Below, one piece after another: positions 3 through 6,731 of a stretch of 6,731 nt of DNA (its first letter is position 1; every line of letters begins with the position of its first letter). Position numbers and translations under genes: made by a program. Below the pieces are notes generated by a model. It was given only the letters and a program-made list of their open reading frames with translations. It was not told where the DNA came from and made no database searches. The stretch spans positions 1 to 6,731 of the forward strand of contig JALVIU010000403.1 in NCBI GenBank assembly GCA_027028665.1, read 5' to 3'. The DNA is from Candidatus Atribacteria bacterium (GTDB taxonomy: Bacteria; Atribacterota; JALVIU01).

Positions 3-1187
3 GTGAAATTAACAAAGTTAAAAGGTGAACGAGAAAAGCTTTTGGAATTTCTTTCTGATAAAAAGAGACGACAGGATAGAAATAAAGAGATCCTTTCTGA
101 TTTTAAAAGGTATATTTTTGAAAAGACAGGGATAGATATATCGGGATTTACATTAGAAAAGGTGGAAGAACTTTTTGCAAAAGAAAAAAGACAGCTTGAA
201 AATGATATAAAAAACCTAAGGCACCTACAGGAAAGTATAGCTACATCTAAAGAGAAAATCTTGATCCTTAAAAGGGATTTAGAGGAGAAGAGGAAGGAAT
301 TGTCCTCTATAAATGAAGAACTCACCTCTGAAGAGGAACTATTTTTAAAAGAATTGAAGAAGAAAGGGTATGAGACATTTGAAGAGGTAAGGGCATTTTC
401 CCTTAAAGAAGAAGAGATAGATAGGCTTGAAAAAGAAAGGGAACAATACAATAGCCGCCTTGTTGTATTGATAGAAAAACAGAGAGATCTATCTCTTTTT
501 TTAAAGAATGAAAAAGATATTGAGAAGAGACTTATAGAGGCAGAGGAGGGTATAAAGTTTTTAAAGGAAGAGATAAAAGAGATCAACATCTCGATAATTA
601 CCCTAAAGGAAAATTTAAAAAAAATGAGAGAAGGTATAGAGAAAAAGAAGAAGATAGAGAAAGAAATGAGTATACTTGATAAAAGATTGGGGATTTACCA
701 CACGATCCTCCAGGACCTCCAGAGTGATAGGCTTCCAGATTATGTACTGGCAACTGTAATGGATACACTTACAGAGAGGGCAAGTGAGAGTCTTAACCTT
801 CTTTCTGATGGGAGATATACCCTTCAGCTTGATGAAAACGATGATATTGTGGTGGTAGATGTTTGGAATGGGGGAGAGGTAAGGCCTGTGGGTACCCTCT
901 CAGGAGGGGAGGTTTTTGCCGCATCCCTGGTGCTTGCTATATCTTTAAGAGATCTGGTTCAGGGCAAAGGAATACTTGATACATTTTTTATTGATGAAGG
1001 ATTTGGTGCACTGGATAAGGAAACAAGAGAAAAGGTAGTAGATGTACTTGGGTCTCTAAGTGAAACAGGTAAACTTGTGGGGATTATTACCCATGTAGAG
1101 GAGCTTGCCATGAATTTCCCTATAGGCTTTAGGATTCATAAATCTCCTCAGGGTTCAGAAATAGAGGTGATAAACCCTGTAAGGTAA
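3..1187 (+). CDS. sbcC: SbcC, exonuclease subunit ATPase (C-terminal part, 5' end outside window)
   Basis: This is the C-terminal part of the SMC/Rad50-like ATPase that works with the SbcD nuclease to open hairpins and process DNA ends in the cytoplasm. Residues 1 to about 225 of the visible part are a charged Lys/Glu-rich coiled coil. The C-terminal ATPase lobe follows, with the ABC signature LSGGE at 299-303, a hydrophobic Walker B ending in D331-E332, the D-loop GALD at 335-338 and the switch histidine H364. Full SbcC is roughly 850-1100 residues. The N-terminal Walker A and the CxxC zinc hook are absent here and should lie upstream. No cysteine occurs in the visible part. The GTG at position 3 is merely the first in-frame codon in the window, not a credible start. 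A RecF/Rad50-like relative is possible, but the LSGG to FIDEGFG spacing fits SbcC well. Confidence 0.88.
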   Translation: MKLTKLKGEREKLLEFLSDKKRRQDRNKEILSDFKRYIFEKTGIDISGFTLEKVEELFAKEKRQLENDIKNLRHLQESIATSKEKILILKRDLEEKRKELSSINEELTSEEELFLKELKKKGYETFEEVRAFSLKEEEIDRLEKEREQYNSRLVVLIEKQRDLSLFLKNEKDIEKRLIEAEEGIKFLKEEIKEINISIITLKENLKKMREGIEKKKKIEKEMSILDKRLGIYHTILQDLQSDRLPDYVLATVMDTLTERASESLNLLSDGRYTLQLDENDDIVVVDVWNGGEVRPVGTLSGGEVFAASLVLAISLRDLVQGKGILDTFFIDEGFGALDKETREKVVDVLGSLSETGKLVGIITHVEELAMNFPIGFRIHKSPQGSEIEVINPVR

Positions 1188-1297: not shown

Positions 1298-1325
1298 TTG
1301 AAAAAATAAAAAAGTATGGTATAAT
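1298..1325 (+). promoter_or_regulatory. Sigma-70-type promoter with extended -10, upstream of yjfB-like gene
   Basis: The -35 element TTGAAA (1298-1303) is separated by 16 bp from a perfect TATAAT -10 (1320-1325). The -10 is preceded by TGG, giving an extended -10 motif. Transcription would start near 1332, only a few bases before the ribosome binding site at 1334-1342, so the leader is very short. The rest of the 162-bp gap after sbcC (1188-1297) is very AT-rich. It shows no GC-rich hairpin with a T-run, so no sbcC terminator can be called. The AT-rich tract could act as an UP element, but this is inference. Confidence 0.8.
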
Positions 1326-1349
1326 AAAAAATGAAAGGGGGAATGCCAC

Positions 1350-1544
1350 ATGAATGGAGTGGGAAATGTTACCCTCAATGCCAGATCTATCGAGATGATG
1401 AATAATTTATTGAAAAACGTAACAGATAAGAACATGGATTTTATGAATAAGATGGTGAAATATGACACAGAGCAAAAGGTCCAGGCTGTTCAAAATTCTT
1501 TAAAGGAGTTTGGCATAGGTACTATTTTAGATATGTATGGTTAG
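1350..1544 (+). CDS. Small YjfB-like putative motility protein, 64 aa
   Basis: This is a 64-residue protein with no signal peptide or membrane segment. It is rich in methionine (7 of 64) and asparagine, and residues 10-53 are likely helical. It ends with a Gly-rich LD motif (GIGTILDMYG). The size, helical middle and C-terminal G-x-LD tail resemble the small YjfB family annotated as putative motility proteins, whose biochemical role is unknown. The resemblance is from memory and weak, so I give no symbol. The coding call is firmer: ATG at 1350 lies 7 nt after the Shine-Dalgarno AAAGGGGGA (1334-1342), behind a near-consensus promoter. An ATG at 1343 is out of frame. The stop codon lies only 29 bp before the cobalamin riboswitch with no terminator between, so transcripts may continue into the btu unit. 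Confidence 0.72.
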   Translation: MNGVGNVTLNARSIEMMNNLLKNVTDKNMDFMNKMVKYDTEQKVQAVQNSLKEFGIGTILDMYG

Positions 1545-1573
1545 GTAGATTTGGTATTTAAACAATTGAATAT

Positions 1574-1710
1574 CTTTTGAGGTGTAAGGGAAATCGGTGA
1601 AAATCCGATGCGGCCCCGCCACTGTAACCTGAGTTGAAGCTCTTCAAAACCACTGGGGAAACCTGGGAAGGGAAGAGTGGATCAGGAAGCCAGGAGACCT
1701 ACCTCAAGAG
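1574..1710 (+). promoter_or_regulatory. Cobalamin riboswitch aptamer
   Basis: The conserved core elements are visible in order: GGTGAAAATCC (1596-1606), CCCGCCACTGTA (1615-1626) and a B12 box AGCCAGGAGACCTACC (1688-1703), which differs at one position from the usual AGYCAGGAGACCTGCC. The closing P1 helix pairs 1574-1583 (CTTTTGAGGT) with 1701-1710 (ACCTCAAGAG), 10 bp with one G-U pair. A peripheral helix can pair CCACT (1650-1654) with AGTGG (1676-1680). Such RNAs bind adenosyl- or other cobalamins and normally repress downstream B12 transport or synthesis genes. The next gene here starts a B12 importer, which fits. The preferred cobalamin form cannot be told from sequence. I find no convincing dedicated promoter in 1545-1573. 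Confidence 0.95.
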
Positions 1711-1717
1711 GGATGTA

Positions 1718-1746
1718 TTACTTCCTTCGCGGGTTTAAGGAAGTAA
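1718..1746 (+). promoter_or_regulatory. P13-type kissing hairpin of the cobalamin riboswitch
   Basis: A hairpin pairs 1718-1727 (TTACTTCCTT) with 1737-1746 (AAGGAAGTAA), a perfect 10-bp stem with a 9-nt loop at 1728-1736. The loop holds GCGGG (1729-1733), the exact reverse complement of CCCGC (1615-1619) in the conserved L5 region of the aptamer. Cobalamin riboswitches are known to use an L5-L13 kissing contact to couple ligand binding to the expression platform, so this is most likely that hairpin. It is followed by A residues rather than T, so it is not itself a terminator. Confidence 0.75.
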
Positions 1747-4459: not shown

Positions 4460-4939
4460 TTATTTTACTACTCTAAATTTTTCTATAAACTTCTTTCTCC
4501 TTGCCTCATAATCTATAAGTCTTCTTTCATATTCTTCATGCATTAGATGAGATGAAATAAGAAAATCCGCTGTTGCTCTATTGCATGCAAAGGGTATATT
4601 CCAGACTGTAGCTAACCTTATAAGTGCTTTTACGTCAGGATCGTGAGGCATAGGCTCTAAGGGATCGCAGAAAAAAATAAGAAAATCTATTTTCCCTTCC
4701 GCAATCATTGCGCCTACTTGTTGGTCTCCTCCAAGAGGTCCACTTTTTAATCTTGTTATATTGAGACCTAACTCTTTGGATAATAATTGTCCAGTTGTTC
4801 CTGTTGCATACAAGTTATGCATAGAAAGTGTTCCTTTATTAAATCTTGCCCACTCAAGTAGATCTTCTTTTCTATTATCATGTGCAATTAATGCTATATT
4901 CTTTACCCTTTTCATTTTAATAATTCTATGTGAATCCAT
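4460..4939 (-). CDS. mgsA: Methylglyoxal synthase
   Basis: This cytoplasmic enzyme converts dihydroxyacetone phosphate to methylglyoxal and phosphate, a bypass of lower glycolysis usually restrained by phosphate. At 159 residues it is close to the 152 of the E. coli enzyme. Motifs run in family order: [15 protein letters not shown] (16-30), the phosphate-binding ATGTTG (45-50), [17 protein letters not shown] (66-82), [15 protein letters not shown] (92-106) and the [16 protein letters not shown] end (115-130). By alignment from memory, D72, H99 and D102 match E. coli D71 (the catalytic base), H98 and D101. The ATG at 4939 is 7 nt from a strong AAAGGGAGGT ribosome site (4947-4956). The TAA stop of the preceding gene lies within that site, only 15 bp upstream, so the two are probably cotranscribed. 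I found no convincing promoter of its own. Confidence 0.95.
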
Positions 4940-4954
4940 TTTTACTACCTCCCT

Positions 4955-6106
4955 TTAAAGATTATTTTTATAGGATAGTTTGAAGTCTCCTATTAGACCT
5001 TTTTCTCCATTATTTTTTTGATATGTAGAGACTGAAGTAAGGAGAGAGCTTTTGTATGTGAGCTTAAGTTTTAGATAATTGAGGTTTATAGAGCTTATCC
5101 CAGCTTTATATAAGGGGGTAAGTTCTCCCTTTTCTGAGATCCCGTTTCTATTTAGATCTCTGAAGAGGAGAAGTCTTTTAAACATAGGATCTTTAAGGTT
5201 TAGTATTCCATTTTTATCCCAATCTAATTTGGCAAGCTCCAAAAATCCATTAAAGGCCCCATTTTGGTCCCCAAAGAGTTCTTTTCCATTGTCTATTTTA
5301 CCATTTAGATTTCGATCAAGTGCCAGGAATGCATCATCACCTGTAATCCAGCTTGTAAGTTCCTTTTTGCCATCCCCATTTATGTCAAACATTACGCCAT
5401 CTTTTGTATTGACAAGATCAAATCCATCTCCATCCAGATCTATGATAAGTGGATCTGCTTGTTGTTGCATGTGTGTTACCTTTATATCTATTGCCATCTT
5501 GAGTTTTATACTTTTCATAGTTTTAGAGATTGACATATTTTCTTTGGATTTATTTATTATCCTTTCCTTCTGTACAATTTCTAACTTAAGGCCAATCTTT
5601 ATGTGGGTCCTTTCTGCTATGGCCTGTAGGTCTCTCTGGTTTGCAGACTGAATTTTATTTGCGATTCTTTTTATCTGGTTTTCGATGTGTGACATTGCAT
5701 TTTTGTGCATATTTTTGAGTTTTAAGGCGTGATCCATCTTCTTTGCAAGTTTCTCTGCGGCTTCTGGATTGTTCTCTTCCAAAAATTCCATAAGTATAAG
5801 ATATTTTTTGGCAACTTCTGGATCGTCTTTGTAAAGTTCATTAATTTGATCTGCTACCTTTTTTGCAAGCTCCGGATCTGAGGATGTCCATTTTAGTGTT
5901 TTTAGAGAATTGTATCTTGTATCTCTTATTTGGGTGCGCGAAAGACTTAGCATGGAGTAATCAATACTTAGATTTAAATTATATTTACTCAGCTTTTTGT
6001 AGCTTGTTTGATCCCTCTTTTGAATAAGCTCTTTTCGAACATTTAAACTCTCAGAGGCAGATAGGTGAAAAGAGGAAAAATTTAAACTCTCTCGTGCAAT
6101 CTCCAT
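4955..6106 (-). CDS. Uncharacterised protein with C-terminal EF-hand-like calcium-binding loops
   Basis: This is a 383-residue protein with no signal peptide or membrane helix. Residues 1-60 are serine-rich and probably flexible, and 75-215 are charged and helical. Residues 218-341 carry five DxDxDG-type calcium loops: D223-L-D-G-D, D241-I-N-G-D, D264-R-N-L-N (then IDNGKELFGD), D295-W-D-K-N and D317-L-N-R-N (E328 at position 12). The C-terminal block resembles the calcium-binding segment PLxLDLDGDG...ELFGD known from large secreted RTX-type and adhesin proteins and from many uncharacterised proteins of this size. It has no RTX nonapeptide repeats. Start ATG at 6106 is fixed by AAGGAGG (6114-6120). 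A sigma-28 type promoter and a hairpin lie upstream, and mgsA follows at 15 bp. Export by a signal-independent route (flagellar or type I) is conceivable but not shown. Function unknown. Confidence 0.88.
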   Translation of the reverse strand: MEIARESLNFSSFHLSASESLNVRKELIQKRDQTSYKKLSKYNLNLSIDYSMLSLSRTQIRDTRYNSLKTLKWTSSDPELAKKVADQINELYKDDPEVAKKYLILMEFLEENNPEAAEKLAKKMDHALKLKNMHKNAMSHIENQIKRIANKIQSANQRDLQAIAERTHIKIGLKLEIVQKERIINKSKENMSISKTMKSIKLKMAIDIKVTHMQQQADPLIIDLDGDGFDLVNTKDGVMFDINGDGKKELTSWITGDDAFLALDRNLNGKIDNGKELFGDQNGAFNGFLELAKLDWDKNGILNLKDPMFKRLLLFRDLNRNGISEKGELTPLYKAGISSINLNYLKLKLTYKSSLLTSVSTYQKNNGEKGLIGDFKLSYKNNL

Positions 6107-6131
6107 TTTTATCCCTCCTTGGAAATAATTT

Positions 6132-6151
6132 TACTACCATCCATGGTAGTA
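6132..6151. repeat. Inverted repeat / 5'-UTR hairpin upstream of the calcium-binding protein gene
   Basis: TACTACCAT (6132-6140) and ATGGTAGTA (6143-6151) form a perfect 9-bp inverted repeat with two central bases, or a 7-bp stem with a 6-nt loop in RNA. A second small palindrome, TAGTACTA (6147-6154), overlaps its edge. In the minus-strand transcript the hairpin would fall within a few bases of the predicted start site and before the ribosome site. It could stabilise the mRNA 5' end or be a regulator's operator. No T-run follows on either strand, so it is a poor terminator for the TRAP gene. Confidence 0.6.
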
Positions 6152-6159
6152 CTACTAAT

Positions 6160-6186
6160 ATATCGGTTTTTTTCTTTATAATTTTA
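6160..6186 (-). promoter_or_regulatory. Sigma-28 (FliA/SigD) type promoter for the calcium-binding protein gene
   Basis: Read on the minus strand, TAAA (6186-6183) is followed after exactly 15 nt by ACCGATAT (6167-6160). The flagellar sigma-28 consensus is TAAA-N15-GCCGATAA, so the -35 core is 4/4, the spacing exact and the -10 6/8 with CCGATA intact. Transcription would start near 6153, giving a leader of about 47 nt. An alternative reading with TATATT as a sigma-70 -10 lacks any -35 match at 16-18 bp. The -35 lies only 10 bp past the TRAP permease stop codon. Confidence 0.6.
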
Positions 6187-6196
6187 TTGGAAAAAT

Positions 6197-6731
6197 TTAT
6201 TTGGTAGCTATACGTGGTAGAATTAGGAGAAATAGTATAATTCCTATTCCTATAATATTAAGATATAATATTTTTATGAGAAGTAAGATACCTGCAATGA
6301 TAAGAAGAATCCTTTGAAGAGGTGTAAGTAATGAGGTGAAGTATCCCATTCCTGCTGCACTTATAACAGTTATAGCAAGCAATGAGCGAATAAGTCCATA
6401 CACTGTAGCAAGTGGATGAGAAAGAAGTAAAAGGGAATTATCATATACAAAGAGATATGGAATGATAAACGCAGAAAACCCTAAGAGAAGAGCAAATTTT
6501 GCCGTTTTTACCCAGTTTGCATCTGCAATGCCTGCTGCTATGTAGACAGCTCCACATACAGGGGGAGTAATGGCGGAAATAATGGCAAAGTAAAATACGA
6601 ATAGATGTGCAGCAATAGGATGTATGCCAAGTTTTATAAGTGCAGGTCCGCCAATGACTACAGCTACAAGATAAGCTGCAGTTGTAGGTACTTCCATTCC
6701 AAGGATAAGAGAAGTAATCATGGTAAGTAGG
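6197..6731 (-). CDS. TRAP transporter fused permease (DctM/TAXI type), C-terminal part
   Basis: These are the last 177 or so residues of a TRAP transporter membrane subunit. The frame stays open to the right edge of the window, and the residues before the internal ATG at 6721 (LLT) continue the typical motif, so the true start lies outside. Numbered from that Met, conserved features are SLILGMEVPTTAAY (4-17), the PALIKLGIHPIAAHLFVFYF stretch (26-45), ITPPVCGAVYIAAGIA (51-66) and FIIPYLFVYD (85-94), followed by three or so hydrophobic helices to the C-terminus. This long helical tail is typical of the fused 4TM/12TM permeases paired with TAXI solute-binding proteins, which import carboxylates using an ion gradient. 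The substrate is not inferable here. The usual glycine-rich GMGLPTT appears as GMEVPTT, a mild divergence. Ribosome site and partner genes are not visible. Confidence 0.88.
   Translation of the reverse strand, partial: LLTMITSLILGMEVPTTAAYLVAVVIGGPALIKLGIHPIAAHLFVFYFAIISAITPPVCGAVYIAAGIADANWVKTAKFALLLGFSAFIIPYLFVYDNSLLLLSHPLATVYGLIRSLLAITVISAAGMGYFTSLLTPLQRILLIIAGILLLIKILYLNIIGIGIILFLLILPRIATK

Follow-up and report, generated by a model that had tools for sequence, protein, structure and literature searches.

The self-processing module (SPM) has been characterized in FrpC of Neisseria meningitidis (PDB 6sjw, 6sjx) and is also known from ApxIVA. FrpC is a large, iron-regulated RTX protein secreted by a type I system. 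Its SPM is unfolded without calcium, binds calcium at about 150 uM, breaks an Asp-Pro bond through strain and leaves an anhydride that joins lysines (PMC7078468). In the solved structure four sites bind calcium stably, and a fifth is transient and formed by other residues (PMC7078468). This reaction is one of few known ways for a protein to make a reactive anhydride and join itself to others. It has been engineered as a ligation tool (PMC7846742, PMC12538545), but the module has been described as exclusive to a subset of RTX proteins (PMC7078468), and a recent panel of SPM homologues stayed within close FrpC relatives (PMC12538545). Here we analysed a 6,731-nt stretch of DNA from a Candidatus Atribacteria bacterium (contig JALVIU010000403.1 of assembly GCA_027028665.1, hereafter the window), in which a gene for a small protein with an SPM of the FrpC type, but without RTX repeats, lies behind a promoter of the type used by the flagellar sigma factor FliA/SigD (sigma-28). 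The pairing of gene and promoter recurs across many bacterial phyla and appears to link this chemistry to motility for the first time.

A sigma-28 type promoter upstream of the gene

A sequence-only reading of the window had proposed that a sigma-28 type promoter places an uncharacterised five-loop calcium-binding protein in the late flagellar or motility regulon. The motif is real. As shown in Table 1, TAAA is followed by exactly 15 nt and then ACCGATAT, which matches 10 of 12 positions of TAAA-N15-GCCGATAA. The -10 element matches 6 of 8 positions, with the core CCGATA exact and deviations from consensus at both ends (A and T), and it ends 53 nt before the ATG, which is preceded by a good ribosome-binding site. 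The pattern TAAA-N15-RCCGATAW occurs once in the window, with 0.01 expected from shuffles.

Table 1. Features of the 6,731-nt window discussed in the text.
Feature	Position	Strand	Remarks
-35 element	6183-6186	-	TAAA
-10 element	6160-6167	-	ACCGATAT; consensus GCCGATAA
Predicted transcription start	about 6153	-	
Inverted repeat	6132-6151	-	9 bp, TACTACCAT-GG-ATGGTAGTA, just after the predicted start; MFE -11.8 kcal/mol, z -2.5
Ribosome-binding site	6113-6119	-	AGGAGGG
Stand-alone SPM protein gene	4955-6106	-	383 aa; ATG at 6106
N-terminal half	5453-6106	-	residues 1-218; 1-64 predicted disordered, 66-165 mostly helical (predicted); predicted passenger that becomes linked
Scissile pair	5450-5455	-	Asp218-Pro219 (FrpC Asp414-Pro415)
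Self-processing module, FrpC type	4958-5452	-	residues 219-383
Methylglyoxal-synthase-like gene	4460-4939	-	PF02142; starts 15 bp after the SPM gene
Upstream TRAP-transporter gene	ends at 6197	-	
Weak sigma-70-like pair	6234-6261	-	9/12; inside the TRAP-transporter ORF
Region of a 64-aa ORF of no known family	1298-1544	+	behind an 11/12 sigma-70-like promoter with a TG extension
Cobalamin riboswitch	1563-1720	+	Rfam 96 bits; ahead of a BtuF/FecCD-type ABC transporter operon; ordinary

To determine whether the match could be due to chance, the whole 1.79-Mb assembly was scanned. TAAA-N16-CCGATA occurs 7 times, against 3 for the reversed control, so that one hit alone would be suggestive rather than conclusive. 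Of the six other exact hits only one sits before a flagellar gene (fliS); one precedes an HU gene with its own sigma-70-like pair and the rest are inside or antisense to coding sequence. A scan allowing one mismatch gave 17 hits against 4 for the control. No sigma-70 pair was found within 6107-6196, but the upstream TRAP-transporter gene runs in the same direction and contains one weak pair. The motif could thus be a chance match, with the gene read from the TRAP-transporter operon or from the weak sigma-70 site, but we consider this very improbable given the conservation of the motif upstream of relatives in several phyla, with independent replication (see below), and given that the distance to the start codon matches that in relatives. 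The inverted repeat would form a hairpin at or near the 5' end of the mRNA and could be a stability element or an operator, a role that is only inferred. The methylglyoxal-synthase-like gene may be co-transcribed with the SPM gene from the sigma-28 promoter.

Flagellar genes in the host genome

The genome was then examined for flagellar genes and fliA. Genes read as flhB-flhA-flhF-flhG and a ycgR-like gene lie together on contig C8 (all but flhA were assigned by eye). On contig C142, fliS has its own TAAA-N15-ACCGATAA 42 bp before the start; a 188-aa protein of no known Pfam family (3-566, plus strand, of the fliS locus) lies directly before fliS, and the sigma-28-like site overlaps its last codons. 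The end of contig C187 holds the last 38 aa of a sigma factor whose five NCBIfam matches are all FliA/WhiG/sigma-28 models, followed by fapA, a 114-aa ORF and genes that read as cheR, cheB and cheA (the che assignments are by eye). A separate full-length sigma factor, on contig C366, is of the SigB/F/G type. Neither a flagellin N-domain nor FlgM was detected, although the assembly is fragmented and this is weak evidence of absence. The regulon is therefore reconstructed across metagenome-binned contigs, with fliA seen only as a 3' fragment. Two further contigs (C57 and C274) share the same stretch near an end, with a small difference, probably an unmerged assembly overlap or repeat.

The protein carries a predicted FrpC-type self-processing module

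Pfam and NCBIfam do not name the protein, and no family of either database covers it and its relatives beyond weak EF-hand-type hits. The sequence-only reading had counted five loops: five D-x-[DN]-x-[DN]-G motifs are present (from D223, D241, D264, D295 and D317). What it missed is the identity of the protein, which is a stand-alone FrpC-type SPM. Residues 219-383 match PDB 6sjx (phmmer E 9e-28), with about 39% identity. An AlphaFold2 model built from 30 relatives is confident over the SPM (block means of pLDDT about 92-98 for residues 221-380) and matches 6sjx with a Foldseek E of 1e-15 and a TM-score of 0.80 by target length. EF-hand calcium-binding proteins such as EfhP of Pseudomonas have similar D-x-D-x-D-G type loops, but no EF-hand Pfam model reaches its cut-off for this protein and the predicted fold is that of the SPM, not of paired EF hands.

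The active site and calcium-binding residues of FrpC (PMC7078468) were mapped onto the protein. The scissile Asp414-Pro415 is D218-P219. FrpC ligands D419/D421/D423, D456, D462/N464/E474, D499 and D521/N523/E532, as well as the fifth-site residues D478 and D579, have identical counterparts, and D280 and D374 of the window protein are among the conserved residues. The port residues W451 (W253 here), L475, G477 and G491 are also conserved. If nearly all known calcium ligands are kept, some are not identical: N501 is D, D503 and D525 are N, and position 468, listed as a ligand N in the published account, reads I in the alignment and K270 here. W519, which stacks with W451 in FrpC (a structural role, not reported as catalytic), is F315. 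Unlike FrpC, the protein has no RTX repeats and an unrelated N-terminal half. No type I secretion genes were found in the window. No hydrophobic N-terminus was seen (15-residue KD 0.37, against 2.58 for the window's binding protein), and the first 64 residues have a pLDDT under 50. The lack of a Sec signal and an unstructured N-terminus are necessary, but not sufficient, for a flagellar type III export substrate.

The absence of a recognised export signal, together with genes near cheA-cheW or motB in a few relatives, could point to a cytoplasmic calcium sensor that tunes motility or chemotaxis, with the SPM fold used only for calcium-induced folding and no cleavage. We regard this as unlikely, since the Asp-Pro bond and the residues of the transient fifth calcium site are conserved and the FrpC SPM binds calcium at a concentration far above the cytosolic level (PMC7078468).

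Stand-alone relatives and conservation of the promoter

A genome scan gave 58 stand-alone relatives (up to 520 aa, mostly 260-480), defined by length and absence of RTX repeats, and 21 RTX or large proteins. The stand-alone set comes from Riflebacteria/Ozemobacter, Hydrogenedentota, Sumerlaeota, Omnitrophota, Chitinivibrionales, Planctomycetes, Alpha- and Gammaproteobacteria and others. In an alignment of 30 of them D218-P219 is invariant. As one of the two scan patterns demanded Asp-Pro, the less biased counts are those of the stand-alone relatives that do not carry that pattern, 39 of 43 of which have Asp-Pro, and of the Hydrogenedentota loci found by profile search, 23 of 23 of which have it. 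A scan of viral contigs with the single protein found nothing, because it picks non-conserved stretches, whereas alignments worked. Three IMG/VR contigs of about 77-169 kb (L042, L043 and L044) encode an SPM; in L042 it has Asp-Pro and is the C-terminus of a 526-aa protein with a lipoprotein-like start, a possible phage use of the module.

To determine whether the promoter is conserved, 300 nt around the start of 57 stand-alone genes were searched for TAAA-N15/16-GCCGATAA. A match of at least 10/12 was found for 24 genes, of at least 11 for 9 and of 12/12 for 5, against means of 1.0, 0.09 and 0.01 for two hundred permuted motifs. At 10 or more the reverse strand gave 2, downstream regions 2 and gene interiors 3; other genes in the same loci gave 13 of 478 and RTX-type SPM genes 0 of 19. 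A second set of 16 Hydrogenedentota genes that were not in the first scan gave 14 at 10 or more and 12 at 11 or more, against a mean of 0.2 for permuted motifs at 10 or more. Without assuming the motif, CCGATA is the most frequent of all permutations of its letters upstream of relatives (37 of 74, mean 4.2), and TAAA/TCAA/TGAA lies 15, 16 or 17 nt before it in 32 of 36 cases and never at 12-14 or 18-20. Related genomes are not independent, but the sites come from several phyla. The conservation makes the sigma-28 type promoter convincing, and the regulatory interpretation of the sequence-only reading is supported.

Association with flagella and secretion genes

FlhA is found in 32 of 33 genomes with a stand-alone gene and in 12 of 17 with RTX-type genes (Fisher p 0.014), although FlhA models can also match injectisome gates. 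In 68 Hydrogenedentota genomes, 31 of 33 with a strong match have FlhA, against 15 of 33 without a match (two weak matches left out; p 3e-5, not corrected for relatedness). In the host phylum the gene is patchy: none of the other 49 genomes has it, although 14 of them have flhA. It is thus an accessory and not needed for flagella. The gene of the window is not in a flagellar cluster and its product is not a filament, cap, hook-junction, motor or chemotaxis protein. Most relatives are likewise not inside flagellar clusters, although a few stand-alone genes lie near cheA/cheW, motB or fliF/fliG.

A type I secretion ABC gene lies beside 8 of 21 RTX-type genes but 1 of 58 stand-alone genes. It remains possible, if less likely, that the protein is sigma-28-regulated but secreted by another route (an unlinked type I exporter or an unknown one) and acts as a surface or extracellular adhesin of motile cells, with no direct contact with the flagellum. 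FrpC and its kin are type I-secreted and link to cell-surface proteins (PMC7078468), most relatives are outside flagellar clusters, and flagellar regulons probably include adhesins and secreted factors. However, the stand-alone proteins have no RTX repeats, linked type I genes are rare, and the SPM reaches the very C-terminus, where a type I signal would have to lie.

Discussion

The explanation we favour, with reasonable though not full confidence, is that the gene is a late (class 3) member of the sigma-28/FliA flagellar regulon and encodes a stand-alone, non-RTX SPM protein. When the flagellar hook is complete and FliA is freed, FliA-RNA polymerase would transcribe the gene from TAAA-N15-ACCGATAT, a step strongly supported by sequence and conservation although the start site is predicted and not mapped. 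In the low-calcium cytosol the SPM would stay unfolded, as shown for FrpC (PMC7078468), which would suit passage through a narrow export channel; as there is no Sec signal and no adjacent type I secretion genes, the flagellar type III apparatus is inferred to be the most likely route. Outside, calcium would fold the SPM, strain the Asp218-Pro219 bond and break it, leaving a reactive Asp218 anhydride on the N-terminal half. This is inferred from the conserved active-site residues and has been shown only for FrpC-type proteins. The N-terminal half would then be linked by an isopeptide bond to a lysine of a neighbouring protein, perhaps flagellin or another surface protein. Promoter and homology are well supported, but no experiment shows transcription, cleavage, export or linkage, and the export route and the target are unknown.

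A more speculative possibility, which we consider doubtful but cannot rule out, is a widespread flagellar clip-and-link system, in which sigma-28-controlled SPM proteins leave unfolded through the flagellar export channel, meet external calcium, cut themselves at Asp-Pro and covalently graft their variable N-terminal halves onto the filament or onto surfaces the flagellum touches, giving calcium-gated covalent decoration or anchoring of flagella.

The SPM and the sigma-28 promoter are both known, and it is their combination that appears new: among the papers searched that hold both terms, judged by titles and term counts and without subscription papers, none joins the SPM to the flagellar regulon. 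A second, non-RTX home in the flagellar regulon of many phyla would offer compact, diverse modules for protein ligation, suggest a covalent step in flagellar biology that has not been reported in the papers searched, and give the SPM chemistry a new biological setting.
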